Part shown: positions 583 to 42,489 of the stretch, one piece after another
How positions within the stretch are numbered: position 1 is the first letter of the stretch
Layout: each line of letters begins with the position of its first letter
Source of the DNA: an uncultured bacterium
GTDB taxonomy: Bacteria; Cyanobacteriota; Vampirovibrionia; Gastranaerophilales; Gastranaerophilaceae
NCBI GenBank assembly: GCA_902797985.1
Contig: CADBUZ010000002.1
Span: forward strand, 1-64,000
Direction: 5' to 3'
Length of the DNA stretch: 64,000 bases
Made by a program: the position numbers and the translations under genes
Notes under the pieces: generated by a model
Told to the model about the DNA's origin: nothing
Database searches by the model: none
The model's input: only the letters and a program-made list of their open reading frames with translations

Positions 583-972
583 TTACCCCTTAGCAGCGGC
601 AAAGGATTCATTTGCTCTCAAATTTGCTTCTTCTATAATCTTAGAGATAAATTCATCAATACCAAATGTGCCAACTTGTCCAATACCTCTTGCACATACA
701 GCAACCGCATTGTTTTCAATTTCTCTATCCCCGATTACGCAAACGTAAGGTATTTTTTTATCCTGTAATGATTCTCTTATCTTATAATTCATAGATTCTG
801 AGCGGTCGTCAAGGTTCACTCTGATTCCTGCTTCTCTCATTTTCTTGTAAACTTGTTCAGTAAAATCAATAACACCGTTGATTTCATCAACAAGTTGTTC
901 AGATGTGCAGAAAATGTGAGCATCGTCTTGAGTAAAGCCTTGTACATGAGTTAAAACTGACAAAGTACCTAA
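583..972 (-). pseudogene. thrS: Remnant of threonyl-tRNA synthetase
   Basis: The 126-residue open part joins two separate pieces of ThrRS. The first is the catalytic-domain segment GFTQDDAHIFC followed by a DEINGVID-type helix. The second is the C-terminal anticodon-binding domain (AGIRVNLDDRSE, KIRESLQDKKIPYVCVIGD, then GQVGTFGIDEFI). About 170-190 residues that normally separate them, including the zinc and ATP motifs, are missing, yet the frame is kept. The N-terminal editing and catalytic parts are absent, and an in-frame TAA lies at 973-975 just upstream of ThrRS-like residues LGTLS. The only start available is a TTG at 961-963. Such a product could not charge tRNA; a complete thrS is presumably elsewhere. 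It could instead be an expressed fragment, but I see no good ribosome-binding site. Confidence 0.75.
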
Positions 973-1139
973 TTAAAAATAATTTTTTAAAACACCCTCC
1001 ATTTATAACTGCTACTTGCACCTTTGGGGAAGAAATTATTCACTCAATTCTCTAATAACATTATTATGTTCCAATTGTGTAAACATTTTGTTTTTTTATC
1101 CAAAAATTCATACAATATTAATAATAAAGGAGAATTAAT

Positions 1140-2273: not shown

Positions 2274-2301
2274 AGTAACTAAATGAATAGTTAAATATAC
2301 A

Positions 2302-2334
2302 AAAAGAGCTTCATATTTTATGGAGCTCTTTTCA
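2302..2334. terminator. Intrinsic terminator between convergent genes
   Basis: AAAAGAGCT (2302-2310) pairs with AGCTCTTTT (2324-2332) across a 13-base loop. The A-run on one side and the T-run on the other suit both the SLH gene and the convergent gene ending at 2358. Confidence 0.75.
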
Positions 2335-2357
2335 ATGCAAATCAAATAATATATTTA

Positions 2358-2759
2358 CTATTCTTCTTCTATTTTTCTGTCGAGTTCGTCTTCTTCGTCT
2401 TCTTCTTCACTCTTTTTAATTTCTTCAACAACCATTTTAGCCATTTCAACAGCAATAGCATGTCTTGTTTCTGCAGGACAGTTTTGGAGCATACTTATTG
2501 CAGTTCTTAATGTTTCGTCTAAATCATACCAACGATTACGTTTTTGGGTTGCTAAATCAATTTCTGTTGCACTAATAATATCAGTAACTTCTTCATATTT
2601 TGAATCCTCGATATTATGTTCGGTAATGATTTTAATTAAATTAAGTGCAATTTTAATTTGAGTATCATCACCAGATTCTTCTAATGTTTGCATTGCAGAT
2701 GATAATACAGGATCTTGATCATACCAACGTCTTGCGCTTGTAGTAAATTCTTCTTTCAT
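2358..2759 (-). CDS. Small acidic protein made of two RWYD repeats, function unknown
   Basis: The 133-residue product has an internal duplication. Residues ~10-50 (RRWYDQDPVLSSAMQTLEE, then a helix) align with ~76-116 (NRWYDLDETLRTAISMLQN, then a helix). Each copy has an R-W-Y-D-x-D motif followed by about 35 residues of predicted helix. The tail is almost entirely Glu, Asp and Lys. There is no signal peptide or membrane segment, so it is probably cytoplasmic. The start has a good ribosome-binding site (AGGAGGG, 5 bases before the ATG). I do not recognise the family. Confidence 0.7.
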   Translation of the reverse strand: MKEEFTTSARRWYDQDPVLSSAMQTLEESGDDTQIKIALNLIKIITEHNIEDSKYEEVTDIISATEIDLATQKRNRWYDLDETLRTAISMLQNCPAETRHAIAVEMAKMVVEEIKKSEEEDEEDELDRKIEEE

Positions 2760-2878
2760 TTTTCCCTCCTATACTCATATAGGGTGCAACTAATAGACTT
2801 ATTATACAATACTAACTTGCTAATGTAAAGAAATTTAAGTTTGTAACAGCAAAATATATGTACAACATGTTTTTGAAT

Positions 2879-3331
2879 TTATTTCTTGAATAATTTATCC
2901 CAAATCGAAATTTTTTTAGAATTCTTTTGTATTTTATTATAAACTTCTTCAAATGTTTCAATTGGTTCTAAGCTATAACCGCAATCTTCTGATAATGTCC
3001 CTCCCATCATAAAAATTTCTTCTTGCGGATATCTTCTGCAAATTCCGGGACGGGTTTTATGTATTTTACACTTATGTGTTTCAGAATCTAAATTTTGACA
3101 TTCAAAAACAAGACCAATTTCATCTTTTCCCATTACTTTTAAATATGTATAAAATCTGTGTTGGTGTTTTAATCGTTCAAAATCTTTTTCATCTTGAATA
3201 ACACCTTTTGCATGTTTCACATATATTTGGCGGCAACATCTGCCACACCCTTTGCATTTACCTGTGCGATAGTATTTTTTGCCTAATATTTTAGTATAAT
3301 AAATTTTTTTTAATTTTTTAAAAAGGGACAT
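2879..3331 (-). CDS. YkgJ-family cysteine-cluster protein (UPF0153-like)
   Basis: The 150-residue product has the YkgJ-type zinc/iron-chelating pattern. C26, C29, C32 and C33 form a C-x2-C-x2-C-C cluster, and a second cysteine set follows (FECQNLDSETHKCKIHKTRPGICRRYP). The family is thought to bind a metal or an Fe-S cluster, but its reaction is not established. The ATG lies 12 bases after the stop of the upstream gene on the same strand, so the two are probably co-transcribed. The ATG has no ribosome-binding site but is preceded by TATAAA and exactly six bases, so a leaderless internal start is possible. Confidence 0.75.
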   Translation of the reverse strand: MSLFKKLKKIYYTKILGKKYYRTGKCKGCGRCCRQIYVKHAKGVIQDEKDFERLKHQHRFYTYLKVMGKDEIGLVFECQNLDSETHKCKIHKTRPGICRRYPQEEIFMMGGTLSEDCGYSLEPIETFEEVYNKIQKNSKKISIWDKLFKK

Positions 3332-3343
3332 ACTTATTTTATA

Positions 3344-3691
3344 CTATAAAATAATGTCGTTAATCAATTGTTGGTTATTAGATAATTCCGATAGTATTTC
3401 ATCTGTGTATGATTGAAGAAAGTCTTCATTCTTAAATAAATTATCTATAAGTTCATTATCAACTTCATCATACTCCATAGCTAATTTAGTGAATTTAGCT
3501 ATGTCATTTTTACGTTCTTGTTGACGTCGTTCTTCTTCTAAAATTTCCGGAATATCCATGCAAAAGTTGTTGTGAATGCCGTTGCAGTTGATGGTTTTAG
3601 CAAAACTATCACCTAAAATTTTATTAGGTTGTATTTGCTCGTACACTTGAGATTTTGTGATTATATCTTTGTTGTTTAAGTTATTAAACAT
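3344..3691 (-). CDS. Hypothetical protein, 115 residues
   Basis: A soluble, charged, Asn-rich protein with no signal peptide or recognised domain. The middle (ILEEERRQQERKNDIAKFTKLA) is probably a single long helix; cysteines occur in NCNGIHNNFC. I chose the ATG at 3689-3691 because GGGAG stands 8 bases before it; the GTG two codons upstream is too close to that site. It lies just upstream of the YkgJ-like gene on the same strand. Its role is unknown. Confidence 0.55.
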   Translation of the reverse strand: MFNNLNNKDIITKSQVYEQIQPNKILGDSFAKTINCNGIHNNFCMDIPEILEEERRQQERKNDIAKFTKLAMEYDEVDNELIDNLFKNEDFLQSYTDEILSELSNNQQLINDIIL

Positions 3692-3775
3692 TTTCACATC
3701 TCCCCGTCAACAACATTATTAATTATTAATTATATTTTGTCATCAACTATTTAGTTGATATTTTGTAAAAATCTG

Positions 3776-4771
3776 CTATTTTACTCGTACTTTTGGAACA
3801 ACTGACATTCCAGGGGCAATAATATATTTGTTAGAATCAATTTTTTCTGTAAATACAATCTTAACAGGAATTCTTTGTACAATTTTTACGAAAGAACCTA
3901 CGGCGTTTTCAGGTGGAAAAAGGCTACTTTTAGCTCCTGAACTTCTTTGAATACTGTCAATTTTTCCTTGAAATTTGTGATGAGGATAAGTGTCGATTTT
4001 CATTGTTACAGGCATTCCGGGTTTCATATGTTCAAGTTGTGTTTCTTTGAAATTAGCTACAACCCAAACATTGTTTGGAACAAGCGTTAACAATGGTGAA
4101 CCTGCAGCTACCATCATACCTTTTTCTACTCTTTTTGCAGAAACCGTTCCATCTTGCGGAGCATAGATTGTTGTATATGATAAACTTTGTGCGGCAGCAT
4201 CTCTTTGTGCCTTTAATGATTTTAAATCAGCATCAGCAACACTATTTCCGTTTGCAAAAATGTTTTCTTGAGCTCTTGTATGGTTTGCCAATACTGCATC
4301 ATATCTTGTTTTAGCATTATCTAATGTTTGTTTTGAAACCGCTCCTGCTTGGTATAAGTTTGTATATCTTTCAACATCTCGTTTTGCAAGTGCAATTTCG
4401 GAATTTGATGCGTCTAATGTAGCTCTTGCATTTTTCTGATCTAATATTTTTCGTTGATAAGCTGCATCTGTTTGAGCAAGTTTAATTTGATAGTCAATAG
4501 GATCAATTTTTGCTATAGGATCACCGGCTTTTACTTGTTGGTTATCTTTTACATAAACCTCAATAATTTCTCCTGATACTTTTGGCGCAATACTAACTGT
4601 TGTTGTTTCTACATATGCATCATCTGTTGATTCATATCTTGTCATATCATATGCGAAAAATCCGCCTAATATCAACGCAATAATACCTATCCCTATGAAT
4701 ATTTTACGTTTTATACCTTTTTTATTATCTTTTTCTTCTGTTTGCGAATTTTCTGTTTTAATTTCTTCCAT
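3776..4771 (-). CDS. emrA: EmrA/HlyD-family membrane-fusion (periplasmic adaptor) protein
   Basis: The 331-residue adaptor has a cytoplasmic start and one membrane helix (~25-44, IFIGIGIIALILGGFFAY). The EmrA-type biotinyl-lipoyl half-motif follows (YESTDDAYVETTTVSIAPKV), then a helical hairpin of ~100 residues, the second lipoyl half (IYAPQDGTVSAKRVEKGMMV) and a beta-barrel domain (VVANFKETQLEHMKPGMPV). Such proteins link an inner-membrane MFS or ABC pump to a TolC-type channel. It lies 9 bases downstream of marR on the same strand and faces the outer-membrane factor gene at 5424 across a shared promoter region. No EmrB-type pump gene is adjacent, which is unusual. GAGG before the ATG supports the start. 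Confidence 0.85.
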   Translation of the reverse strand: MEEIKTENSQTEEKDNKKGIKRKIFIGIGIIALILGGFFAYDMTRYESTDDAYVETTTVSIAPKVSGEIIEVYVKDNQQVKAGDPIAKIDPIDYQIKLAQTDAAYQRKILDQKNARATLDASNSEIALAKRDVERYTNLYQAGAVSKQTLDNAKTRYDAVLANHTRAQENIFANGNSVADADLKSLKAQRDAAAQSLSYTTIYAPQDGTVSAKRVEKGMMVAAGSPLLTLVPNNVWVVANFKETQLEHMKPGMPVTMKIDTYPHHKFQGKIDSIQRSSGAKSSLFPPENAVGSFVKIVQRIPVKIVFTEKIDSNKYIIAPGMSVVPKVRVK

Positions 4772-4779
4772 TTTTACCT

Positions 4780-5280
4780 CTATATTGTAATTTCTATTAT
4801 TTCTGACATTGATTTTCTAAGTTTTTCTATTCCTTTTTTTAGATATTCTATATCATAATTTTCCATTTTTTTATGTACAGTTTCAAACATAGGAATAATT
4901 ATGTTTGTTAATTCGGTAAGAGTTTCAGAACCTTTTTCTGTTAAAGTTATAATATGAGCCTGTCTTTTATTTTTAGTTTTTTCAATACGTTTAATATAAC
5001 CTCTAGTTTCCAAAGAATTAAGCATTCTACCCGTATTTGCTCTGTCTTTTAACAATATTTGTGCTAAATCTCTTTGATGAATTTCACCGTTGTGAAGATT
5101 TATTATCCCCAGTGCCGTAAGCTCATCAATAGTAATCTCTAAATCAAGTTTTTCTTCCAGTTGTTTTGCCAACATTTTTGAGCATTTTTCTGTAAGTTTT
5201 ATTTGATAATATAAAGAATCAATAAAACCTTGTGCTATATCTTTTGATTGTTTTTCTATTGTTTTGTTCACGTTTATCAC
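4780..5280 (-). CDS. MarR-family transcriptional regulator
   Basis: A 166-residue winged-helix protein. Residues ~60-110 give the MarR helix-turn-helix and wing (HQRDLAQILLKDRANTGRMLNSLETRGYIKRIEKTKNKRQAHIITLTEKG), flanked by dimerisation helices. It starts with GTG at 5278-5280 with no obvious ribosome-binding site. It is the first gene of a marR-emrA unit, divergent from the efflux channel gene, so it very probably represses both units through the intergenic palindrome at 5305-5320 and is relieved by a toxic ligand. The ligand cannot be read from sequence. Confidence 0.88.
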   Translation of the reverse strand: MINVNKTIEKQSKDIAQGFIDSLYYQIKLTEKCSKMLAKQLEEKLDLEITIDELTALGIINLHNGEIHQRDLAQILLKDRANTGRMLNSLETRGYIKRIEKTKNKRQAHIITLTEKGSETLTELTNIIIPMFETVHKKMENYDIEYLKKGIEKLRKSMSEIIEITI

Positions 5281-5304
5281 TTTGTTTTATTATTAAGTTT
5301 TATG

Positions 5305-5320
5305 TGTTGCTTTTGCAACA
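5305..5320. promoter_or_regulatory. Candidate MarR operator palindrome
   Basis: A perfect inverted repeat, TGTTGC-TTTT-GCAACA, lies in the 143-base gap between the divergent marR-emrA and tolC-like genes. MarR proteins usually bind a palindrome of about this size overlapping their own promoter. No experiment or second copy in this window confirms it. Confidence 0.5.
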
Positions 5321-5423
5321 TTATTATGGTATCATCAATGGTAACAAATTTCAAGAGGGGTATATTGAATAAAAAATACTCTAAATAGTTAATTCTCAAT
5401 CGATGATTGTACGAGGTTAAAAT

Positions 5424-6887
5424 ATGAAAAAGTTAATGAGTTTAGCAATATTATTTAGTATCATTAGCACGAATATAGGTATTTTTAATTTACCGGCACA
5501 AGCTGCTTTTAGAAGTAAAGTTGAAAAAAATTCTGCTATTGAACAAGAAAAGAAACAAGATAAAGAAATATACAAACGTGTTCAAAAACAAAAAAACATA
5601 CCTTATAAAAAATTACGTGTAACTAATAAATATAATTTTATAAATATGACTTGGTGGGAAGGATTTAATGATCCATATTTAATAGGTTATATAAATAGAG
5701 CCATGTCACATAATTATGATTTGAAAATGGCAACATTAACAGTGGAAGAATACTATCAAGGTGTGAAATTGCAAATGGCCGGCGAATTACCGCAAGTTGA
5801 AGCGGGATACGGCATAGGTCTTGCAGGTACACCACCCGGTTTAGCATCAAAAGGAAGAAATACTCTGCACGGTATGGGTATACCAATTATTGCTAATTAT
5901 GAAGCAGATATTTTCTTAAAAAATCATGATAAAACTACTTCTTCAAAAAAATTATTTGAAGCATCAATAAATGATGAGCGTTCTGCTTATATTTCAATAG
6001 TTTCTTCTGTTGGTGCAGTTTATTATAATATTGTCCGTTTAGATAAAGCCATTACATTACAAGAAGAAATAGTTGAACTAAGAAAAGAAATTTATGAGTT
6101 AATGGCATTGAGCCATGCTAACGGAATTGTATCTACAAGTGATATGATTAAAGCTAATAAATCATACATTAACGGGCAAACTAATTTGGTTGATTTAAAG
6201 AAACAAAGAGTTGAATTACTAAATAAATTAGCAGTTTTAATTGGTGAAAGTCCTGCTAACATTGATACTTTTGAAAGAATTGCGTACGATAATATTGATT
6301 ACAGAAATAATATACCGAATGAAATATCATCAGATATAATTGTTCAAAGACCTGATTATTTGAAGGCAGAAGCTTTGCTTAAAAAAGCGGGTATTGACGT
6401 AAGAGTTGCAAAAAAAGAATTTTTGCCAACTATTAATATATCGGGACTTGCTTTGTTTAATTCAAGACATTTAGGTAGTATATTTACAACAAAAAATGCG
6501 TTGTGGTCTGTAGGTGGCGCTGCAATGTTACCTATATTCACAGGTGGAGCAAGAATTGCTAATTTAAAATTAAATAAGGTTAGACTTGAAAAAGCGCTTA
6601 AAAATTATCAAAAAATTAATTTAATTGCAATTCAGGAAGTTAACGATGCACTTTATATTGCTAAATCAGATAATGAAAAATTAAACCGAAATAAAGAACA
6701 TCTAAAATTAGAAACAGAAGATTTTTCACTTACAGAAAAAAAATATTCTGAAGGTGTAATTTCTAAACTTGATTTATGTCAAATGAAAGAAAATCTTTTA
6801 ACAGTAGAAAAGTTAGTATCTTCAAATACAATAGATTGTATGGTTGATTCTATAAACTTGTATAAAGCTGTCGGTGCTAAATATTAA
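5424..6887 (+). CDS. TolC-type outer-membrane efflux channel (OMF, NodT-like)
   Basis: The 487-residue protein has a signal peptide (MKKLMSLAILFSIISTN, cut near AQAAF). The OEP architecture follows: WWEGFNDPYLIGYINRAMSHNYDL opens the first repeat, AAYYNIVRLDKAI-type helices cross the middle, and the second repeat carries VQRPDYLKAEALLKKAGIDVRVAKKEFLPTI. R-P-D-x3-A-E-x2-L is the hallmark of the NodT/CusC branch, but no lipobox cysteine is visible after the signal. Trimers form the outer-membrane exit duct for adaptors such as the EmrA-like protein encoded divergently. Control through the shared 5281-5423 region is likely. Confidence 0.85.
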   Translation: MKKLMSLAILFSIISTNIGIFNLPAQAAFRSKVEKNSAIEQEKKQDKEIYKRVQKQKNIPYKKLRVTNKYNFINMTWWEGFNDPYLIGYINRAMSHNYDLKMATLTVEEYYQGVKLQMAGELPQVEAGYGIGLAGTPPGLASKGRNTLHGMGIPIIANYEADIFLKNHDKTTSSKKLFEASINDERSAYISIVSSVGAVYYNIVRLDKAITLQEEIVELRKEIYELMALSHANGIVSTSDMIKANKSYINGQTNLVDLKKQRVELLNKLAVLIGESPANIDTFERIAYDNIDYRNNIPNEISSDIIVQRPDYLKAEALLKKAGIDVRVAKKEFLPTINISGLALFNSRHLGSIFTTKNALWSVGGAAMLPIFTGGARIANLKLNKVRLEKALKNYQKINLIAIQEVNDALYIAKSDNEKLNRNKEHLKLETEDFSLTEKKYSEGVISKLDLCQMKENLLTVEKLVSSNTIDCMVDSINLYKAVGAKY

Positions 6888-6999
6888 ATTTTGATATTTA
6901 CAACTATAAACAAAATAGAACTTTCTTATCTTAGAATATTAAATTAGATTATAAACTATAAACTTTTTTTAATTTAATATTTTTTATTAATATTAAACA

Positions 7000-7008
7000 T
7001 GTTAAAAT
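7000..7008 (+). promoter_or_regulatory. Extended -10 element placed for a leaderless mRNA
   Basis: TGTTAAAAT matches an extended -10 (TG-n-TAAAAT). The hexamer ends at 7008 and the ATG of the permease gene begins at 7015. Six bases is the usual distance to the transcription start, so the mRNA would begin at the start codon. No Shine-Dalgarno sequence is present. Confidence 0.55.
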
Positions 7009-7014
7009 AAGTTT

Positions 7015-7860
7015 ATGTTTAAAAAATTAACTCAAAAATTTTCTATACATTTTGTTTTGATAATAGTGTCATTGTTATCAATATTTCCTTTTATATGGTT
7101 GTTATCGACTTCTTTAAAGGGAGTAAATGAGAATATATTTGCATATCCTCCTACAATTATTCCGCAGGATTTTACTTGGGAAAATTACATCGGGGTATGG
7201 AATCAGGTTAATTTTATAGGATATTTTGTGAATAGTATGGTAGTTGCAGGATTTACCGTACTATTAAATTTGATTTTATCAGCTCTTGCAGCATATCCGC
7301 TTGCCAGAATGGAATTTCAAGGAAAGAAAATTGTATTTTTTTCTGTGTTGGCAACAATTATGATACCGTTTCAATCAATAATGTTACCTGTGTATTTGAT
7401 TACGATAAAATTGAATCTTATAGATAGTGTAAATAATGTAATGGGATATTTGGGATTAATTCTTCCTTTTGCAGTTAATGCATTTGGTATATTTTTAATG
7501 CGGCAAGCGTTTTTAAAAATCCCCAGAGAATTAGAAGAAGCAGCTATAATTGATGGTTGTAATGTTTTTCAAATGTTTATGAAGGTTTGTGTTCCAATGA
7601 TTAAACCATCACTGGCGGTTTTAGCTATTTTTACGTTTATTGGTTCTTGGGGTGAATTTTTATGGCCGAGCATCGTTTTAACTAAAGATTCTATGTACAC
7701 CCTTCCTGTTGGGATAAATAATTTACAAGGGATGTTTTCTTCTAATTGGAGATTTATAGCTGCAGGTTCGATTTTGGCAACTATTCCTATTGTTATATTC
7801 TTTCTTGCAATGCAAAAATACTTTATTTCCGGCGAAAATGATGGTGCTGTAAAGGGTTAG
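7015..7860 (+). CDS. Carbohydrate ABC transporter permease (MalG/CUT1 type)
   Basis: A 281-residue inner-membrane permease with six predicted helices. The first is at ~14-34, followed by the periplasmic segment FAYPPTIIPQDFTWENYIGVW. The conserved EAA loop is at ~180-200 (ELEEAAIIDGCNVFQMFMKVCVPMIKP), where the ATPase docks. The order and length fit the second permease (MalG/UgpE type) of sugar importers. No partner permease, binding protein or ATPase gene is adjacent; a MalK/UgpC-type ATPase is encoded at 52250. Start at ATG 7015, likely from a leaderless mRNA. Confidence 0.85.
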   Translation: MFKKLTQKFSIHFVLIIVSLLSIFPFIWLLSTSLKGVNENIFAYPPTIIPQDFTWENYIGVWNQVNFIGYFVNSMVVAGFTVLLNLILSALAAYPLARMEFQGKKIVFFSVLATIMIPFQSIMLPVYLITIKLNLIDSVNNVMGYLGLILPFAVNAFGIFLMRQAFLKIPRELEEAAIIDGCNVFQMFMKVCVPMIKPSLAVLAIFTFIGSWGEFLWPSIVLTKDSMYTLPVGINNLQGMFSSNWRFIAAGSILATIPIVIFFLAMQKYFISGENDGAVKG

Positions 7861-7969
7861 TTTTTGTTTTATTTTCTTTTTTTTATTAAAATTACTTGAT
7901 AAATAAAAAAAATTATTATATAATCCTCATGTCAATTTATATTTATTAAGTAAAAGAAGGACTACTATC

Positions 7970-9256
7970 ATGAAAAAATTACTCGCAAGTTTGCTTTTAG
8001 CAAGTTTTATGAGTTTGAACATTACTCCGGTTTTAGCAATGGACACATCAAAAATAAAAGATATGACATCGGGGTATTGGGCTAACTCCGCAATTGAATG
8101 TGTTGTTTCAGACGATGTAATGAGTCTTGATGACAATTTCAATTTTAACCCTGAAAATCCAATAACCAGAGCAGAATTTGTAAAGGCACTATTAAAAGTA
8201 TTAAACAATTCTTGTTGCGAAATAAATGCTAAAAACAATTATTCTGATGTGAACAAAACAGATTATTACTATAATGACATTATGCGTTCAGATAGCTTAG
8301 GACTTGTGTATGGTTATCCTGATGGAACATTTAAGCCATATCAAGCTATGTTGCGTTCTGAATGCGTGTCTGTAATTAGCCATATTACAAAAGAAGCAAT
8401 CTCAGATTTACGTATTTTAAATAACTATAAAGATAAATCTGATATTCCTGTCTGGGCAAAAGAAGAATATGCAAAAACATTAACTTATGGAATTTTTGTA
8501 AATCACCCTGATGAATATATGCTTGAGCCAAATAGAACATTAACAAGAGCTGAAGCAGCTGTTATCTTTATGCAATTAAAAAATAAATTATCTTGCGTAA
8601 AACCTCAATATGTGGGTGAAGTTGAATCTGTATTAGGAATTGAACACCTTAGTATTGTAAAAGATACTCCAAACAATACAGTAAAAATTACAAATTTAAG
8701 AAAAATAGTTTCAAAAGGAAATGTAATTATTGTTGCATTCGATGAAAAATTCTTTTCAAAATGTCATCAAGCAGGTGATATAGTTAACTTTGTGCTTCCT
8801 GAAGCATTATATACAGATGAAGGAACACAATTATTACCACAAGGTACTAAAATTGTAGCTGAAGTTACAAGAATAGTTAAGCCTAAAAAATTCAATAAAA
8901 ACGCAAGAGTACATATGTTATTTAAATCAATTGTACTTCCTGACGGAAGATGTTATGAAATGTGCGGAAAACCATATACAAAAGAACATGTATTAATGGA
9001 AGGTCCTTGGATGACTTTCTGGAAATTATTCTTGTCAACAGTCGGTTTTGGTGCAATTGGTGCAGGTGCAGGTACAGGTTTTGCGTTTATTCCAAATCCT
9101 GCAAAATTAGGTGTTGGTTTCGCTATCGGTATACCTGTTGGTTGTACTGTTGGTCTTTGTATCGGCTTGCTCACTCCTGGGCTTCACTACAAAGCTAAAA
9201 AAGGCGAGCAGGTAATGGTTATTTTACTTGATGATGCAAGTATTAACAATAAATAG
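7970..9256 (+). CDS. Exported SLH-domain protein with C-terminal beta and glycine-rich segment
   Basis: The 428-residue protein has a signal peptide (MKKLLASLLLASFMS, cut near VLA-MD). Three SLH repeats lie at ~28-80 (GYWANSAI, PENPITRAEF), ~90-140 (YYYNDIM, GYPDGTFKPYQAMLRSE) and ~150-205 (VWAKEEYAKTL, NRTLTRAEAAVIF). A beta-rich region follows (~215-330; LPQGTKIVAEVTRIVKPKKF, LFKSIVLPDG), comparable to that of the SLH protein at 1140. Residues ~345-405 are a glycine-rich hydrophobic stretch that could cross or lie in a membrane. Wall-anchored envelope protein of unknown specific function. TATAAT at 7919-7924 and AAGAAGG before the ATG give promoter and ribosome-binding site; a terminator follows. 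Confidence 0.8.
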   Translation: MKKLLASLLLASFMSLNITPVLAMDTSKIKDMTSGYWANSAIECVVSDDVMSLDDNFNFNPENPITRAEFVKALLKVLNNSCCEINAKNNYSDVNKTDYYYNDIMRSDSLGLVYGYPDGTFKPYQAMLRSECVSVISHITKEAISDLRILNNYKDKSDIPVWAKEEYAKTLTYGIFVNHPDEYMLEPNRTLTRAEAAVIFMQLKNKLSCVKPQYVGEVESVLGIEHLSIVKDTPNNTVKITNLRKIVSKGNVIIVAFDEKFFSKCHQAGDIVNFVLPEALYTDEGTQLLPQGTKIVAEVTRIVKPKKFNKNARVHMLFKSIVLPDGRCYEMCGKPYTKEHVLMEGPWMTFWKLFLSTVGFGAIGAGAGTGFAFIPNPAKLGVGFAIGIPVGCTVGLCIGLLTPGLHYKAKKGEQVMVILLDDASINNK

Positions 9257-9280
9257 ATTTTAAAACATACTCTATTATAT

Positions 9281-9308
9281 AAGCCGTAAAATTCTTTACG
9301 GCTTTTTA
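9281..9308 (+). terminator. Intrinsic terminator after the SLH gene
   Basis: AAGCCGTAAA (9281-9290) and TTTACGGCTT (9295-9304) form a perfect 10-bp stem with a 4-base loop and a T-run. It can also serve the convergent phosphohexomutase gene. Confidence 0.85.
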
Positions 9309-9334
9309 TTTTGAATAAATATAAATAAGACTTT

Positions 9335-10729
9335 TTATTTTATAAATGAAAGTATATCTTTTTTAATTTTTTCAAGATTTTCAATGTTATTACTTTCAAA
9401 ATAAATTCTCAACAATGGTTCTGTTCCGCTTGGACGCGCTAAAACCCAACTATTTTCACCTAAATATATTTTTATTCCGTCTTTAGTATCTGTTTTCGTT
9501 AAATCAAACCCGCCTGCAGTTTTAACTTTTGACATTTTTTCTATTACGGTGGTGATTTCCGAACGATTATTTAGTTTGAAATCAACCCTATCATTAACAT
9601 ATTCAGAGCCCACAAAATCTTTTAAATCTTGTTGTAATTCAACCATAGTTTTATGAGAAGATGCCATTGCCTCCAATACTAATAAATTAGCTAGTAGTCC
9701 GTCTTTTTCAGGAATGTGTCCTTTTATACTTAATCCTCCTGATTCTTCTCCACCAATAAGACAATCATTTTCTCTCATTGCTTGACCCACATGTTTAAAT
9801 CCTACTGCTGTTTCGACTACATCTATTCCAAGTTTTTCAGCTGTCTTGTCAAGCATTAAGCTTGCCCCCACTGTTTTTACAAGGCAACCACTCATTTTTT
9901 TATGCTCAACTAAATGTTTTAGTAAAATGGCTATTACTTCGTTCGGGGTAACATATTCACCTTGTTCATTAATAACCCCAAATCTATCTGCATCACCATC
10001 ATTTGCAAAACCCACAGTATTTTTTATTGTTTTAATTTTTTCTATTAATTCTTTCATATATTTTGGTTTAGGTTCAGGCATTCCTCCACCAAAATTTGTG
10101 TCGTGAAGCATATGCATACTGTCAAATTTTATACCATGTTCTTTTAGTAATGTATCAAAATAACCTATGCTTGCTGAATATAAACCGTCAAAAATAATAT
10201 TTATTTCGGCATTTTTTATTAGTTCAAAATCAATAAGTTTTTCAATATGTTCATAATACTCTTTAGCAAAATCTGTTAGAGTGATTTTTCCTGATTTCCC
10301 ATTTTCAAATTTTAAAGCTTCATTCATATAAATATTTTTCTCAAGAGCATCTGTAATATCAGAAGTAGCAGGGCCTGCATAATCAGGGATAAACTTAATT
10401 CCTAAATATTCAGGCGGGTTGTGAGATGCTGTAAACATAATTGCACAAGCATTTCTATTTTTTGCACAATAGGCAAGTACAGGAGTGGGAACTACACGAG
10501 AAGAATACGACACATTAAATCCATAATCAGATATTATTTCTGCCGTGAGTTTTGAAAAAACATCTGCCATATTTCTAGGGTCATATCCTATTATAATTTC
10601 TTTTTCAATCCCATATGTTTCATAAACATATTTCGCAATAGCATGAGCTACAAGTTTTACGTTTTCTTCCGTAAAATCTTCTCCTACAATTGCCCTCCAA
10701 CCATCAGTTCCAAATTTGATTTTTGTCAT
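9335..10729 (-). CDS. Phosphoglucomutase/phosphomannomutase (alpha-D-phosphohexomutase)
   Basis: A 464-residue enzyme that interconverts hexose 1- and 6-phosphates, feeding glycogen, cell-wall or surface-sugar synthesis. Family motifs in order: KFGTDGWRAIVG at the N-terminus; the catalytic phosphoserine S102 in TASHNPP; the Mg2+ loop NDGDADRFG; the sugar-binding GGEESGG; and the phosphate-binding RPSGTEPLLRI near the C-terminus. Length is normal. Glucose or mannose preference cannot be decided. The 5' end is remarkable: the start region is tandemly repeated three times (10691-10840), and an upstream 17-codon ORF ends in a TGA overlapping this ATG (ATGA), which suggests coupled translation. 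Confidence 0.88.
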   Translation of the reverse strand: MTKIKFGTDGWRAIVGEDFTEENVKLVAHAIAKYVYETYGIEKEIIIGYDPRNMADVFSKLTAEIISDYGFNVSYSSRVVPTPVLAYCAKNRNACAIMFTASHNPPEYLGIKFIPDYAGPATSDITDALEKNIYMNEALKFENGKSGKITLTDFAKEYYEHIEKLIDFELIKNAEINIIFDGLYSASIGYFDTLLKEHGIKFDSMHMLHDTNFGGGMPEPKPKYMKELIEKIKTIKNTVGFANDGDADRFGVINEQGEYVTPNEVIAILLKHLVEHKKMSGCLVKTVGASLMLDKTAEKLGIDVVETAVGFKHVGQAMRENDCLIGGEESGGLSIKGHIPEKDGLLANLLVLEAMASSHKTMVELQQDLKDFVGSEYVNDRVDFKLNNRSEITTVIEKMSKVKTAGGFDLTKTDTKDGIKIYLGENSWVLARPSGTEPLLRIYFESNNIENLEKIKKDILSFIK

Positions 10730-10840
10730 AATATATATTTACCCCTCCAACCGTCAGTTCCAAATTTAATTTTTGTCATGATATATATTTACCCCTCCAA
10801 CCGTCAGTTCCAAATTTGATTTTTGCAATAAATATACTTA
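10691..10840 (-). repeat. Three tandem 50-bp copies of the phosphohexomutase start region
   Basis: Units 10691-10740, 10741-10790 and 10791-10840 are near-identical 50-mers. Each covers the first ~36 coding bases (MTKIKFGTDGWR) plus a leader of ~14 bases. Only the gene-proximal unit continues into the full gene. The middle unit keeps its ATG; the distal unit has lost it (TTTTGCAATA instead of TTTTGTCAT). The coding bases GGTTGGAGG of each upstream copy now lie ahead of the next ATG as purine-rich, Shine-Dalgarno-like sequence. Confidence 0.9.
10726..10779 (-). CDS. 17-residue upstream peptide created by the tandem duplication
   Basis: The ORF starts at the ATG of the middle repeat copy and reads MTKIKFGTDGWRGKYIL, then TGA at 10728-10726. 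The TGA overlaps the ATG of the phosphohexomutase gene. It is preceded by GGAGGGG from the third copy, though 12 bases away, a long spacing. It may act as a coupling leader peptide or be a neutral by-product of the duplication; expression is not shown. Confidence 0.45.
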   Translation of the reverse strand: MTKIKFGTDGWRGKYIL

Positions 10841-10935
10841 TCCCTTTGTTTATCTCATTGCCACTCTGTTTAAATTTTTTGGGCTTTCTTTATTATATAC
10901 TATAATAATTATACAAGATATGAGGAAAATAATAA

Positions 10936-11493
10936 ATGACAAATTTAACTATAGAAAAAATAGAATCGATTTTGAAAAATGTTGAAAATGGTAGTGAAAT
11001 CGTTGAATACATAAAAGAACTTGAAGAACATAAGTGTAAATGTAATGATAAAGACCATCACCACCATCATGATGATTGTGATTGCGGTTGTCACGACCAC
11101 GAAGAAGAATGGGTTGAGATTGAAGATAAATTTCCAAAAGATTTAACTGTAGAACAATGGGAAAAAATCCTTCTTGATAAAACATGTTTTTCAGAAGATG
11201 AAAAGAAGTTATTAAAAAGATTTCGACATGTTGCAATGCCGACAAGCGCTTATGAGCTGGCGGATGAGTTTGGCGGAGGCGGTGCATATTGGTATAACGA
11301 ACTTATAAAAAATATTGGAAATAATGTTGCTAAAAAATTAGGGTTAAATGAATATATAAATGCTGAAAATTGGTTTATTCTTTTTAAATGTTGGAATAAA
11401 CCCTCAGAGGATATTAGATATTATGGATTAAAATCTGAATTATATGAAGCAATCGGTAATGTTGATATGTCAGATGTTGACCTGTGGGGTTAA
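10936..11493 (+). CDS. His/Cys/Asp-rich putative metal-binding protein
   Basis: A 185-residue soluble protein. After an N-terminal helix (~1-33), residues ~34-57 are extremely rich in possible metal ligands (CKCNDKDHHHHHDDCDCGCH). Residues ~95-185 form a separate domain with PTSAYELADEF, YWYNELIKNIGNNVAKKLGL, WFILFKCW and YGLKSELYEAI. That pattern resembles small winged modules I associate with some restriction-type proteins, but I cannot name the family. A TATAAT lies at 10911-10916 and GAGG before the ATG. Roles as metal buffer or metal-regulated protein are guesses. Confidence 0.6.
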   Translation: MTNLTIEKIESILKNVENGSEIVEYIKELEEHKCKCNDKDHHHHHDDCDCGCHDHEEEWVEIEDKFPKDLTVEQWEKILLDKTCFSEDEKKLLKRFRHVAMPTSAYELADEFGGGGAYWYNELIKNIGNNVAKKLGLNEYINAENWFILFKCWNKPSEDIRYYGLKSELYEAIGNVDMSDVDLWG

Positions 11494-11566
11494 ATATTTA
11501 GAGAATAAAACTTTAAAAATTATTTTAGATGTATAATTATCATGTAAGAGAGAAAGAAGGATTTAC

Positions 11567-12223
11567 ATGAAAAAAGAATTGATATTCTTAGGGCCTCCTG
11601 CGTGTGGAAAAGGAACACAAACAAATTTGTTGGCAGAACATTTTGGATATCCACACATAGATACAGGTTCATTATTAAGAGCCGAAATTGCTTCCGGTTC
11701 TGAGAATGGTAGTATTGCTAAACAATTTATTGATAAAGGCCAATTGGTGCCGGTGTGGTTGGTTGGCGAAATTATAAAAAACAGATTAAGTCAAGAAGAT
11801 TGTAAAAAAGGATTTATTCTTGATGGGTTTCCGAGAAGTCTTGAACAGGCAGAAATGCTTGAAGAAATTCGTGAACATATTGATGGGGACGAAGAAGTAG
11901 ATTTCCGTGCAACATATTTTGATATAGAGATAGATGAACTTGTATCAAGAATAGTTAATCGTCGTTCTTGTCCTAAGTGTGGTGAAATTTATAATTTAAA
12001 ATCAAAATCCCCTAAAAATGAAGGTAAATGTGATGTTTGCGGGACAGAATTGACTCAAAGAAAAGATGATAATGAAGAAACAGCACATGCAAGATTTGAT
12101 ACATATTTTAGAGAAACAGCTCCGTTGATTGAATATTATAAATCTAAAAATGAGTTGTCTTCTATTGATGCAAAAGGAACAATAGATGAAGTATGGGAAA
12201 GATTGTTGAAGGTGGTTGAATGA
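11567..12223 (+). CDS. adk: Adenylate kinase, zinc-binding long-lid form
   Basis: A 218-residue enzyme catalysing ATP + AMP <-> 2 ADP in the cytoplasm. The P-loop is at 9-18 (GPPACGKGTQ), the AMP-binding motif is DTGSLLRAE, and LDGFPRSLEQAE is standard. The lid has four cysteines (CPKC...CDVC), so it should bind zinc. Most adenylate kinases have GPPGSGKGT or GPPGAGKGT; the Cys at position 13 is unusual. ATGTATAAT upstream and GAAAGAAGG before the ATG mark promoter and ribosome-binding site. Its stop overlaps the map start (ATGA), so adk-map-aroE form one operon. Confidence 0.95.
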   Translation: MKKELIFLGPPACGKGTQTNLLAEHFGYPHIDTGSLLRAEIASGSENGSIAKQFIDKGQLVPVWLVGEIIKNRLSQEDCKKGFILDGFPRSLEQAEMLEEIREHIDGDEEVDFRATYFDIEIDELVSRIVNRRSCPKCGEIYNLKSKSPKNEGKCDVCGTELTQRKDDNEETAHARFDTYFRETAPLIEYYKSKNELSSIDAKGTIDEVWERLLKVVE

Positions 12224-12972
12224 TAAACAGAAAATCAAGAGATGAAATCAAAAAACAACGACATGCAGGTCATATAGTGGCATTAGTTCACAAGAAAATG
12301 AAAGAAGTTGTAGAACCCGGAATAAGTACAAAAGAACTTGATAATATTGCTATGAAAGTTATTAAAGAAAATAAGGCAATACCTACATTTCTGGGATATA
12401 ATGGTTTTCCTGCAAGTATATGTACATCAATAAATGAAAAAGTTGTACATGGAATCCCATCAGAAAAAGAAATTTTAAAAGAGGGCGATATAATTGCAAT
12501 AGATGTTGGAGCAACGTATGGCGGTATGGTAGGAGATAGTGCTTGGTCTTATGCCGTCGGTAATATTTCCGAAGAAAAACAACAATTGATGAAAGCAACA
12601 GAAGAAGCGTTGTTTGCAGGTATTTCAAAAATGAGAGCGGGTAATGTTTTAGATGATATTTCCGGTGCAATTGAAGATGTTGCAAAAAGTTATAGTATGG
12701 GAATAGTTAGACATTATGGCGGACACGGAGTCGGTCATGTTATGCACGAAGATCCGTTCTTATTTAATTTTAGGGTAGGTGACCAAACAAAAATAAAATC
12801 AGGTTATGTAATTGCAATTGAACCAATGTTAAATCTTGGTGGTGATGATGTATATACAGAACCTGATAACTGGGGTGTTGTTACAAAAGACCATATGCCT
12901 TCTGCTCACTTTGAACATACAGTTCTTGCAACGGAAGATGAACCAATTTTGATTACAACACTTATGGAATAA
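12220..12972 (+). CDS. map: Type I methionine aminopeptidase
   Basis: A 250-residue enzyme that removes N-terminal methionine from new proteins. The five metal ligands are in place: the two Asp in IDVGATYGGMVGDSAW, His in GGHGVGHVMHEDP, Glu in AIEPML and Glu in HFEHTVL. The length is typical of type I. Start overlaps the adk stop by four bases (ATGA), indicating coupled translation; aroE follows after 13 bases. In many bacteria adk and map adjoin secY and ribosomal genes, which is not the case here. Confidence 0.95.
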   Translation: MINRKSRDEIKKQRHAGHIVALVHKKMKEVVEPGISTKELDNIAMKVIKENKAIPTFLGYNGFPASICTSINEKVVHGIPSEKEILKEGDIIAIDVGATYGGMVGDSAWSYAVGNISEEKQQLMKATEEALFAGISKMRAGNVLDDISGAIEDVAKSYSMGIVRHYGGHGVGHVMHEDPFLFNFRVGDQTKIKSGYVIAIEPMLNLGGDDVYTEPDNWGVVTKDHMPSAHFEHTVLATEDEPILITTLME

Positions 12973-12985
12973 AAGAGGACAAATA

Positions 12986-13831
12986 ATGAAATATAAACTG
13001 GGCATAATCGGTTATCCTTTAGGACATTCTATTTCACCTGTTATACAAAAAGCAGGGTTTGAAAGTATTGGTTTAGATGCAGAATATGATGTTATGGAAA
13101 CTCCTGCTGAAGATTTGGTTGACAGAATAAAATTCTTAAAAGCTAACGGATATCATGGTTTTAACGTTACTATTCCATTGAAAATACCTATATCATTTTT
13201 TATGAGTGATATGGATGATTATTCTAATATCGCAGGTTGTATAAATACAGTTAAAATATCAGGTGAACAAAGAGAAATGTTTGGATACAATACTGACATT
13301 TATGGTTTCAAAACAGCTATTCCTTCTGATGTTGATTTAAAAAATAAAAATGCTTGTATTTTAGGAACAGGCGGTGCTTCAAGAGCTGCAGCAGTCGGAC
13401 TTATAGAAAAAGGAATTAACTCAATAGATTTTTATACAAGAAATATTATCAACGCACAAAATGCTATTAATTATTTAAGAGATAAATTTCCTAATATAAA
13501 ATTCACGGCACATCAAATTCAAAATGTTGTTTCGCTGCCTGAAACAGCGATTGTAGTTAATGCAACACCTATTGGAATGAAAGGTTTTGCAGCAGACGAA
13601 CAACCGCTTAGTGATTACGTAATAAAAACATTAGATAAATCTACAATTGTGTATGATATAGTTTATAATCCTTTAACAACAAGGTTTTTACAATCAGCAC
13701 AGAAAGAAGGTTTAAGAACGGTTGAAGGGTTGGATATGCTGCTTTATCAAGCACAACATGCTGTTCAGATTTGGACAGGAAAAACTCCTGATGTAAAAGA
13801 AATGAAAATAGCAGCGCTGCGTAATTTGTAA
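12986..13831 (+). CDS. aroE: Shikimate dehydrogenase
   Basis: A 281-residue NADP-dependent enzyme reducing 3-dehydroshikimate to shikimate for aromatic amino acids. Substrate-binding motifs are GYPLGHSISP, NVTIPLK with the catalytic Lys, and NTDIYGF with the catalytic Asp. The Rossmann motif is LGTGGASRAAA, and the conserved NATPIGM is present. AAAAGAGG precedes the ATG, 13 bases after map. Last gene of the adk-map-aroE unit; no terminator hairpin is evident before rpsT. Confidence 0.93.
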   Translation: MKYKLGIIGYPLGHSISPVIQKAGFESIGLDAEYDVMETPAEDLVDRIKFLKANGYHGFNVTIPLKIPISFFMSDMDDYSNIAGCINTVKISGEQREMFGYNTDIYGFKTAIPSDVDLKNKNACILGTGGASRAAAVGLIEKGINSIDFYTRNIINAQNAINYLRDKFPNIKFTAHQIQNVVSLPETAIVVNATPIGMKGFAADEQPLSDYVIKTLDKSTIVYDIVYNPLTTRFLQSAQKEGLRTVEGLDMLLYQAQHAVQIWTGKTPDVKEMKIAALRNL

Positions 13832-13982
13832 TATATTTAATAGTGTTTATGAAATTTTTGAATCTCGCATGTTGCATGAAAAATATGTTTAGATTAGAAT
13901 AATCTCAACTCACATCCTCGTATCGGATAAGACGTCGTCATTAAACGTTCAAGTCCGTACAAATTTGAAAGGATAAAATAAA
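13832..13982 (+). promoter_or_regulatory. Leader region of rpsT
   Basis: The 150 bases before rpsT are less AT-rich than other gaps and include a possible small hairpin (GACGT at ~13931 with ACGTT ~14 bases later). GAAAGGAT precedes the start codon. In many bacteria S20 controls its own translation through its leader, but I cannot match this leader to a known structure. GTTCAAGTCC at ~13949 looks like a tRNA T-loop, but no tRNA folds here. Confidence 0.3.
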
Positions 13983-14249
13983 ATGGCAAACATTAAATCA
14001 GCAAAGAAAAGAGTATTGATAGCAGAAGCTAACAGACAAAGAAACGTAGCTTGGAAATCTTCTATTAAGACTGCTTTCAAAAAAGTTCTTACTCTTGCAG
14101 AAGGTGATGACAAAGAAGCTTTTAACACAGCATTATCAAAGGCATATCAACTTTGTGACAAAGCTGTATCTAAAGGTATTCTTCACAAAAACACAGCTGC
14201 AAGAAAAAAATCAAGACTTACTCTTGCTGCTAAAAAGTTAGCTAAGTAA
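13983..14249 (+). CDS. rpsT: 30S ribosomal protein S20
   Basis: An 88-residue basic protein of the small subunit. The N-terminus MANIKSAKKRVLIAEANRQRN and the helix SKGILHKNTAARKKSRLTLAAKKL are characteristic of S20, and the length is normal. It binds 16S rRNA and helps 30S assembly. It stands alone between a long leader and a strong terminator, as rpsT usually does. Confidence 0.95.
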   Translation: MANIKSAKKRVLIAEANRQRNVAWKSSIKTAFKKVLTLAEGDDKEAFNTALSKAYQLCDKAVSKGILHKNTAARKKSRLTLAAKKLAK

Positions 14250-39373: not shown

Positions 39374-40768
39374 TTAAATATTGCATTTTATAGCTTGTTT
39401 AAGCTCTCTTATAATTTCCTTAACCTCAGTATTTCTATCAGCTTCTTCAACTATTTTCTCATAAGAATATAGCATAGTTGGATGCTTTTTATTCAAGAAT
39501 TTAGCTATTTCTTCATAACTCATTTTAGTCATCTCTCTTGCAAGATAAATTGTATATCTCCTTGCTGCACTAATGTTTTGAGATCTTGCAGGACTTTTCA
39601 AATTATCTACTGTTATATCAAAATATTCTGCGACTGTTTGAGCTATATTTTTTATGGTTATTTTTCTTTGCTGAGTTTCACTTTTTAAAACATTCATAAC
39701 AAAATCAAGCGTAATATCTGTATTTTCAATATCGGCAATAGCAGTAACTTTGTTAAATGCACCTTCCAATTCTCTAACATTATTATTAAAATTAGTTGCT
39801 ATAAATTCACAAACATCATCAGGTAATTCATTCAACAAAGCACAAGACCACATTTTTAAAATTTCAAATCTTGTTTCATAAGATGGTGGCTGAATATCAA
39901 CAACAATTCCCATTTCAAATCTTGTTCTCAATCTATCAGGTAAAGTAGGAATATCTTTTGGAAGTCTGTCTGACGTTATAACAATCTGTTTATCTAACTG
40001 CTGTAAAGTTTCAAATATATAGAATAATTCTTCCATACATTTTGTTTTTGATTCAATAAATTGAATATCATCTATCAAAAGAACATCAATATTTCTAAAT
40101 CTTTGACGAAATTTTATCATTAAATCTGTCTTGTCATAACCTCTTAAATTATTTATATATTGATTAACAAAATCTTGTGTTTTTATATATTTAACTTTTT
40201 TCTTAGGAAGATTAAAAATAGTATAGTGACCAATTGCTTGCATTAAATGAGTTTTACCAAGTCCTGATCCGCCATATATGAATAAAGGATTATATTTTTT
40301 TGCAGGATTTTGCGCAACTATTTTAGCTATTGTATAAGCTGTTCTGCTGTTTTCACCAATTACAAAATTTTCAAACTTATATTTTAAATTCAAATTAGCA
40401 TTAGAATACATTTGTTTTATACTATCTGAATTTTCTCTGTCATCACTAACGTTACGAACACTAACACGAACTTTTTGAATTTTTTTGTTTTTTTCTTTCT
40501 GAATTTTTAAAGCAGCTTCCTTATCAAACACAATATTAAAATCAACAGAATTACCTGTTAATCTTTTAAAGATATCTTTAATTTGACCAAGATGAGATTT
40601 TCTTAAAATATTAACAGCCATAGATAAAGAAGTAACAACAGTAAATATTCCTCCGGAATATCCTGTAGGTTCTAATGAATTTATCCAAGGATAAGAAGAC
40701 TCAGGAACTTCCTTAAGAAGCTCTTGTTTAACCTCTTCCCAAATTTTTTCTGTTTCCAACGTATCCAT
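39374..40768 (-). CDS. dnaA: Chromosomal replication initiator DnaA
   Basis: A 464-residue AAA+ initiator. Domain I (~1-85) begins IWEEVKQELLKEVPESSYPWI. The AAA+ core has Walker A GGSGLGKTHLMQAIGH, Walker B VLLIDDIQFIE and the sensor segment TSDRLPKDIPTL. Domain IV carries the DNA-binding signature SAARRYTIYLAREMTKMSYEEIAKFLNKKHPTML. No ribosome-binding site lies before the ATG; a TAAAAT hexamer ends six bases upstream, so the mRNA is predicted to be leaderless. It is divergent from dnaN rather than upstream of it on the same strand, with a 548-base origin-like gap between them. Confidence 0.97.
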   Translation of the reverse strand: MDTLETEKIWEEVKQELLKEVPESSYPWINSLEPTGYSGGIFTVVTSLSMAVNILRKSHLGQIKDIFKRLTGNSVDFNIVFDKEAALKIQKEKNKKIQKVRVSVRNVSDDRENSDSIKQMYSNANLNLKYKFENFVIGENSRTAYTIAKIVAQNPAKKYNPLFIYGGSGLGKTHLMQAIGHYTIFNLPKKKVKYIKTQDFVNQYINNLRGYDKTDLMIKFRQRFRNIDVLLIDDIQFIESKTKCMEELFYIFETLQQLDKQIVITSDRLPKDIPTLPDRLRTRFEMGIVVDIQPPSYETRFEILKMWSCALLNELPDDVCEFIATNFNNNVRELEGAFNKVTAIADIENTDITLDFVMNVLKSETQQRKITIKNIAQTVAEYFDITVDNLKSPARSQNISAARRYTIYLAREMTKMSYEEIAKFLNKKHPTMLYSYEKIVEEADRNTEVKEIIRELKQAIKCNI

Positions 40769-40774
40769 ATCATG

Positions 40775-40780
40775 ATTTTA
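40775..40780 (-). promoter_or_regulatory. dnaA -10 element, six bases from the start codon
   Basis: On the minus strand TAAAAT is followed by CATGAT and then the dnaA ATG. Transcription would begin at or next to the A of ATG. The overlapping ATCATGAT is a perfect palindrome and could be an operator. The deaminase gene at 43086 has nearly the same 19 bases. Confidence 0.5.
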
Positions 40781-40943
40781 ATATAAGCATGATGTGTCAT
40801 GGGTTTTGGCATGACAAAAATAAAATATTTTTTTACATTATAAAATATTAAGAATTGTAAATCATGTATTTATAAAAAGGCAAATTTTTTTATACCAAAT
40901 ACTTTATAAAAGTATAAAGCTCTCTCTTCTTATTTAAACGGAC

Positions 40944-40970
40944 AGACCTTGATAACAAGGTCTTTTTTTT
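40944..40970 (+). terminator. Orphan intrinsic terminator in the dnaA-dnaN gap
   Basis: AGACCTT (40944-40950), loop GATAAC, AAGGTCT (40957-40963), then a run of T. It is oriented for rightward transcription, but no rightward gene lies before it, because dnaA runs the other way. It may end a small RNA starting at about 40800-40900. Confidence 0.7.
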
Positions 40971-41036
40971 ATTAATATAAATTATATAAATTAATTTATT
41001 TATATTAATCATCATTAGTAATAAGCTTTTATTATT

Positions 41037-41200
41037 TGTAGAAAACTCTTTGTAAGTTAGTTATATAAAAGTTTTTAGATTGTTTAAAATAATGTAGAAA
41101 ATAAACAAAATAATGTTATAAAATTGTAGAAAAATTTAAATATTTAAAAATATAAAATAAAATATGTAGAAAATAAAAAGTTTTCTACAGGTTTTATACA
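41037..41200. other. Probable replication origin (oriC)
   Basis: The 9-mer TTTTCTACA or its complement occurs five times: 41037-41045, 41093-41101, 41125-41133 and 41165-41173 (reading TGTAGAAAA on the + strand), and 41181-41189 (TTTTCTACA). The variant TTTTATACA follows at 41192-41200. This resembles the DnaA box TTATCCACA and the cyanobacterial form TTTTCCACA. Boxes 4 and 5 form an inverted pair seven bases apart. The stretch 41134-41165 is almost pure A/T and could be the unwinding element. Position between dnaA and dnaN supports the call; strand skew was not computed. Confidence 0.75.
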
Positions 41201-41316
41201 AACAAATATTATAAATAAAAATTGTATCAATTTGTGTACATAAAAAGCCATAAAACTTTTAATTACAGTAAATTTAAGATAAAATATTGTCATAATAAAA
41301 ATCATTAGGAGGTTTT

Positions 41317-42489
41317 ATGGAATCAGGGGTTATGGAATTAGAAAATAATAGTGTTAATAATTCATCAACAGGTGATTTATCATTTCAAGTAGAAAAAGAA
41401 ATATTATTAAATGGTCTAAAAATAGTAGAAAGAGCAACTGCGCAAAAAGGTTTACAACCTGTTTTAGCAAATATATTAATTGATGCAGTTGATAAAAATA
41501 AATTAAATTTATATGCTACAGATTTTGATTTATCAATAATAACATCAATAGAAGCACAAGTTAGTAATATAGGTAAAATAACATTACCTGCTAAAAAATT
41601 ACTCGATATAGTTTCAAGATTGAATGATGGTATTATTAGTTTTGAATTAAATTCAAATATAATGACAATAAAAAGCGGAAAATCAAAGTTTGATATTATT
41701 GGTATTTCAGCAATGGAATTTCCAAAAATAGATTTATTATCAGAAGAAGATAATGAAGTAGAAATTGATTTAAAACCATTAATAATTGGCATAAAAGAAG
41801 CAGGATTTGCTGCAGCTTCTTATGAATCAAATAATAATCTATTATCAGGTGTTGTTTGCGATATAAATAAAAATGTTTTAGAAATTGCATCAACAGATGG
41901 AAACAGATTATCAAGAGCAAGAAAAATTATTACTAATAAAGACGATAAATCTATAAAGCTTATTGTTCCTGCAAAAGTTTTACAAGAATTTTTAAAGATA
42001 AGTTATTTTATTGATGAAGATACTGTTAAACTTTATACAAAAAATAATAAAATAATGATTAAATCTGAAAATGTAATAATGATTTCAAATATAATGAACG
42101 GACAATATCCGCAATATAATCAATTGATACCTCAAACTTTTCCAAAAGAAGCAAAAGTTAATGTATCAAAAATAATTTCAGCATTAGAAAGAGTTTCTAC
42201 TATGGTTAATGAAAAAACAAGCATAGTAAAATTCAATTTTGTGGATAACAGATTATATTTAATGGCAGATACTCCGGAATCAGGAAATTCACAAGATGAA
42301 ATAGATATTTCATATTCAGGTGAAGAAATTCTTATTGCGTTCAATTATAGATATTTATTAGAATGTTTTAAAAATATTGATGCAGAAGATATGATTATAT
42401 GTATGAATACAAATCTTTCTGCAACAGTAATTAAACCTGATAATGACGAAGATTTTATTTATCTTGTAATGCCTGTTCAAATAAGATAG
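41317..42489 (+). CDS. dnaN: DNA polymerase III sliding clamp (beta subunit)
   Basis: A 390-residue ring-forming processivity clamp. It has three similar domains of ~125 residues. SFQVEKEILLNGLKIVERATAQKGLQPVLANILI opens the first, and the C-terminal DEDFIYLVMPVQIR matches the conserved VMPMRL-type end. Residues 1-18 (MESGVMELENNSVNNSS) are a short N-terminal extension not seen in most clamps. TAGGAGG precedes the ATG. Faces away from dnaA across the putative origin; a terminator follows. Confidence 0.95.
   Translation: MESGVMELENNSVNNSSTGDLSFQVEKEILLNGLKIVERATAQKGLQPVLANILIDAVDKNKLNLYATDFDLSIITSIEAQVSNIGKITLPAKKLLDIVSRLNDGIISFELNSNIMTIKSGKSKFDIIGISAMEFPKIDLLSEEDNEVEIDLKPLIIGIKEAGFAAASYESNNNLLSGVVCDINKNVLEIASTDGNRLSRARKIITNKDDKSIKLIVPAKVLQEFLKISYFIDEDTVKLYTKNNKIMIKSENVIMISNIMNGQYPQYNQLIPQTFPKEAKVNVSKIISALERVSTMVNEKTSIVKFNFVDNRLYLMADTPESGNSQDEIDISYSGEEILIAFNYRYLLECFKNIDAEDMIICMNTNLSATVIKPDNDEDFIYLVMPVQIR

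Follow-up and report, generated by a model that had tools for sequence, protein, structure and literature searches.

The region at positions 40963-41200 of the window, the 64,000 nt stretch of DNA analysed here, is, as judged from sequence evidence, very likely to be a chromosomal replication origin (oriC), belonging to a bacterium of the Gastranaerophilales type. The window corresponds to bases 1-64000 of the 87,163 bp contig G000:C2, part of a 1.86 Mb draft genome in 55 contigs, close relatives of which, by DnaA, are genomes from rumen and other gut metagenomes, with one labelled as a cyanobacterium. Other members of the phylum among the genomes searched behave like Cyanobacteriota, and the source is accordingly taken to belong to the Melainabacteria / Vampirovibrionia. 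An origin had originally been predicted at this locus, and that interpretation is well supported by a cluster of DnaA boxes beyond chance expectation, a match to a profile of related sequences, a conserved anatomy and a switch in nucleotide skew in a related genome, G188. Each of these elements (the box cluster, its spacing, the DnaA-trios, the A/T tract, their conservation and the co-location with the G188 skew switch) was established by computation.

The region is flanked by two genes that face apart, as had been claimed, both of whose identities were confirmed by profile searches. On the minus strand is dnaA, encoding the chromosomal replication initiator (39374-40768; TIGR00362, E 3e-131), the product of which passes the TIGR00362 equivalog threshold with 438.6 bits against a cut-off of 343.9 and matches both PF00308 and PF08299, the AAA+ and C-terminal helix-turn-helix domains each being present. 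On the plus strand is dnaN, encoding the beta clamp of DNA polymerase III (41317-42489; TIGR00663, E 2e-78). Between the start of dnaA and the putative unwinding element lies a rightward intrinsic terminator consisting of an 8-pair stem and a T run (40944-40971, plus strand), a type of which one was found where 0.1 would be expected. There is no annotated rightward gene ahead of this terminator, which may shield the A/T tract against transcription or be the relic of a past neighbour. A search of the window against Rfam returned no match at the gathering score.

It had been proposed that five exact copies of the nonamer TTTTCTACA and one variant occur within about 165 bases, and these were found at 41037-41200, a span of 164 bases. 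The trio-proximal copy, box 1 (41037-41045, minus strand), is an exact match in which all nine bases, together with the following AAAT, are invariant in an alignment of 17 relatives. Box 2 (41093-41101, minus strand) is 56 bp from box 1, a distance of 53-56 bp in most relatives, and box 3 (41125-41133, minus strand) is 32 bp from box 2, a distance of 32-33 bp in several relatives. Box 4 (41165-41173, minus strand) and box 5 (41181-41189, plus strand) constitute the left and right halves of an inverted pair, TGTAGAAAA N7 TTTTCTACA, and are accompanied by the variant box TTTTATACA (41192-41200, plus strand), which is also enriched at the origins of related genera.

Across the window there are eight copies of TTTTCTACA compared with 2.2 expected, a total reached in none of 100 shuffles. 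The genome-wide count suggested alongside the original prediction gave a divided answer, there being no overall excess (86 copies, versus 104 of a reversed control) and a single, unique cluster; hence the word itself is not enriched, and it is the cluster that is unusual, with five copies within 153 bp anywhere in the genome having a Poisson expectation of ~3e-9. The same genome-wide counts rule out a titration system operating through over-representation of the box. All five exact boxes have T at position 6, and consequently fall outside the canonical TTWTNCACA, which has C at this position. The cyanobacterial box, TTTTCCACA, has no copies in 40769-41316, and the difference between it and TTTTCTACA is, as had been stated, confined to one position, the T for C at position 6. 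The idea that this represents a lineage-specific DnaA box was borne out, as TTTTCTACA is found across the order.

On the minus strand, the boxes lead into a module running from box 1 (41045-41037) through a spacer (41036-41025) and putative DnaA-trios (41024-41016) to A/T-only sequence extending down to 40963. The spacer, AATAATAAAAGC, was delimited through alignments of relatives and is 12 bp long; known box-trio spacers peak at 10-13 bp (PMC8287927). The trios, recognised from the alignment of the 17 relatives and the profile match, read TTA TTA CTA where the relatives have TTATTATTACTATTA, with the TTA at the equivalent place being invariant in all 17. The window's run of three clean trios is shorter than those of its relatives, although it may continue as far as 41004 if a single additional A is skipped. 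The components correspond to those of an unwinding system, comprising the box at 41037, a spacer within the limit of ~16 bp and three trios, the complement of which, 3'-AAT AAT GAT-5', has the middle adenine.

Adjoining the trios is a putative DNA unwinding element, an A/T-only run of 47 bp (40963-41009), in agreement with the earlier claim of such a stretch beside the boxes. It is the longest A/T-only run in the 64 kb, the second (41130-41165) being 36 bp in length, and the least stable 60 bp duplex step of the window is found at 40963-41023. Relatives harbour an A/T-only tract at the equivalent place, and those aligned have in common the arrangement TTTTCTACA-AATA-8 bp-TTATTATTACTATTA, beyond which the sequence is exclusively A/T. 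When 84 kb of the contig was searched with a profile constructed from the 17 relatives, the window having been left out, the sole match with E <0.5 was at 40971-41107 on the minus strand (E 8e-11); the profile had no match at six dnaA loci of relatives.

Evidence from nucleotide skew is decisive only in the relative G188, a member of the same family. On a 740 kb contig of this genome, strand-corrected third-codon skew switches at 312-314 kb, with a gain in lnL of 1390 over a model of no change, and the boxes, at 313,844-314,007, are within ~2 kb of the switch. The minimum in cumulative GC skew that had been anticipated near 41 kb was not clearly present in the raw values, whether for the window or for 84 kb of the contig, whereas the strand-corrected analysis did place the best switch on this contig at 41-43 kb, albeit weakly (lnL gain of 11-12, with 19 of 500 permutations as good). 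The window contig alone would not prove an origin. Its strand-corrected third-codon skew also flips sign at ~14 and ~63 kb (positions 1-14000 of the window, and contig C2 from ~63 kb, locus L164), as expected for a rearranged neighbourhood, which suggests recent inversions around the origin.

In most genera of the order, the box cluster is found just upstream of dnaN. Similarly, 128 bp separate box 5 from dnaN in the window, an adjacency typical of cyanobacterial-type oriC, and by eye the ~110 bp directly upstream of dnaN still aligns with the rest of the genus. The inverted pair TGTAGAAAA N5-10 TTTTCTACA is present in 43 of 146 genomes of the family, mostly once in each, compared with one genome for a reversed-pattern control, and tandem box pairs are present in 127 of the 289 genomes of the class. 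No box cluster was found beside dnaA in four congeneric relatives or at ~40 further dnaA loci of the family, and at these same loci dnaN is almost never within reach. Hence the divergent arrangement of dnaA and dnaN, put forward as a feature of the origin, found no support, with dnaA being away from the cluster in the relatives checked. Two genomes of the same genus, G063 and G111, have the A/T tract on the dnaN side of the boxes, between these and the gene, whereas the window's module is reversed, with its A/T tract toward dnaA. These comparisons indicate that the divergent order is a local rearrangement, in which the module has been inverted relative to dnaN, and not a trait of the lineage. 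At one other locus, L021 (G061, genus g30), dnaA and dnaN are in tandem ~1.3 kb apart, without a TTTTCTACA cluster upstream of dnaN.

The adjacency of dnaA and oriC might instead be an artefact of draft misassembly, the real order being the oriC-dnaN of the genus and dnaA having its place at another locus. No relative examined has dnaA beside the cluster, the orientation of the module with respect to dnaN is likewise reversed, and in a draft of 55 contigs such a join could be an assembly error; nevertheless, this appears unlikely, because the join lies inside an 87 kb contig and gene order around oriC varies family-wide, making a real change of this kind an ordinary rearrangement. It is more improbable still that the true origin is elsewhere and the boxes represent a DnaA-controlled promoter or titration site governing expression of dnaA and dnaN. 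The boxes do sit in a divergent promoter region, and autoregulation of dnaA by its product is known from other bacteria, but the cluster in relatives is away from dnaA and sometimes not beside dnaN, yet keeps its spacing, trios and A/T tract, and it is at the cluster that the skew of G188 switches. The distance from cluster to dnaN is ~5 kb in G001 and ~2.6 kb in G118; in genera g2 and g8, the separation of about 3-5 kb implies that the cluster is more than a dnaN promoter element.

As an origin, the region can be compared with a number of known systems. The oriC of cyanobacteria (Synechococcus elongatus, Anabaena and Cyanothece; DoriC) are alike in being situated beside dnaN, usually away from dnaA, and in possessing several 9 bp boxes beginning TTTT (PMC4674748, PMC6323995), but have TTTTCCACA in place of TTTTCTACA and Asp, rather than Lys, at DnaA residue 433. 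The basal unwinding system of Bacillus subtilis and most bacteria has the same succession of box, 12 bp spacer, trios and A/T tract (PMC8287927), although here the trios are mostly TTA/CTA, as opposed to CTA, and the box is outside TTWTNCACA. Likewise, both the box and residues of the reading helix are changed in the lineage-specific boxes of Thermotoga maritima (AAACCTACCACC) and the Epsilonproteobacteria (fixed T5); by contrast, the changes here are at position 6 and residue 433, a residue called highly conserved in one of the reports on these boxes (PMC5043019, PMC10225481).

On this reading, the module is an instance of the common box-spacer-trio unwinding system. The C-terminal domain of DnaA is predicted to bind the TTTTCTACA boxes, and from the box at 41037 the protein would extend leftwards over the single-stranded trios at 41016-41024, whereupon the A/T-only tract at 40963-41009 would open and the helicase be loaded there. 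DnaA binding, the direction of opening and helicase loading are in this sense what we infer, as is the role of residue 433 in causing the change at base 6, the T for C at this position probably being matched by DnaA Lys428, the equivalent of Asp433 in E. coli.

Alignments including 1j1v place the Lys428 codon (39485-39487, minus strand) in the DNA-reading helix. Asp433 is listed as a base-contact residue (PMC7561715, PMC5043019), and the helix starting at residue 434 reads TnCACA (PMC5742627). Outside the class, DnaA carries the signature [KR]DH[TS]T at 25 of 30 loci, the motif being unmatched in five, and boxes are mostly TTTTCCACA or TTATCCACA. Within it, the equivalent of Asp433 is usually Lys, the remaining cases having Arg, Asn, Thr, Gln or Gly. 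Asp is paired with C at base 6 in the cyanobacterial outgroups; in the present group, Lys or Arg goes with T and occasionally A, and a nested clade has Asn or Thr together with C or A. Among TTWTNNACA boxes pooled from origins of the order, position 6 is T in 259, A in ~91 and C in 8 of those accompanying Lys/Arg433, versus C in 37, A in 44 and T in 4 of those accompanying Asn/Thr433; Fisher's test on T:C gives 2e-35, a value that ignores kinship and relates to residue groups defined after the boxes of some genera had first been seen. In a tree of domain III only, the Asn/Thr genera with located origins group together, with full support, as a single clade nested among the Lys members of the order, which implies about two switches and not many. 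T6 is retained by the R433 genera g2 and g17, and is also used by families f4 and f5, which combine Lys433 with Pro423 (and, in f4, the Gly pair), such that other changes in the helix are not needed for T6.

This covariation, the new part of the analysis, suggests that the box and its reader in DnaA changed together, on the basis of about two independent switches and with exceptions remaining. Whether residue 433 itself sets base 6 is finely balanced; were it to do so, there would have been two switches. Early in the non-photosynthetic class, close to its base, Asp would have given way to Lys and C to T, and within a single clade of the family Lys would later have been replaced by Asn/Thr, the T reverting to C or changing to A. 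It is plausible, if somewhat doubtful, that the two changes are instead unrelated, with A+T pressure causing the box to drift and the change in the protein having other reasons. The small number of independent switches and the A+T richness of the genomes are in keeping with this, as are the use of A6 by several K433 genera and the C6-type triplets found, at sites that may not be origins, in K433 genomes of f6 and in an f11 genus-mate of K433. The ambiguous picture in genus g3 (Asn433) and the absence of a box cluster in the R433 genus g26 also weigh against the link. Against the drift reading, the N433/T433 genera are equally A+T-rich yet have their 37 C and 4 T, alongside 44 A, where ~2.7 C and ~7 T would be expected, the K/R433 genera have 259 T to 8 C, and f5 genomes, with K433 and a G+C content of 44-49%, also use TTTTCTACA/TTATCTACA near dnaA. 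A search for triple-box patterns in family f9 (T433) produced no convincing cluster; in the f9 genome G160, contig C6 lies on one replichore across all skew samples (to 580 kb).

The residue 433 link is a good, testable lead. If true, it would constitute a natural change of DnaA recognition for which the order offers a ready set of natural variants, with which to study how a protein indispensable for initiation and the boxes it reads can change in step while the cells remain viable; Lys433 DnaA would prefer T6, and Asp433 DnaA C6, among TTTTCTACA, TTTTCCACA and TTTTACACA. Origins in this large uncultured gut group would be missed by finders that use TTATCCACA or TTTTCCACA, or that expect oriC close to dnaA, whereas for this group the TTTTCTACA pair and the trios provide a direct handle on them. 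A literature search, largely outside subscription papers, found no description of oriC in this group, and one for the literal TTTTCTACA returned unrelated primers and sequences only.

Some further features of DnaA and of box-like repeats were observed. Pro430 of the window's DnaA (39479-39481) is equivalent to Thr435 of E. coli, where the T435M substitution loses box binding (PMC5742627); Pro is found here in the window's genus and several others, and the box is the same whether a genus has Thr or Pro. A tandem array of an 18 bp unit, TTTTCTACAGGTTTTGTG, is present at G165:C5:130931-131029, the genome being one from f9 with T433. In a Q433 genome of f11, tandem arrays of a 22 bp unit containing TTTTCGACA are present at G184:C12:18444-18584 and G184:C34:16105-16157, and these may represent iterons or a different type of box.
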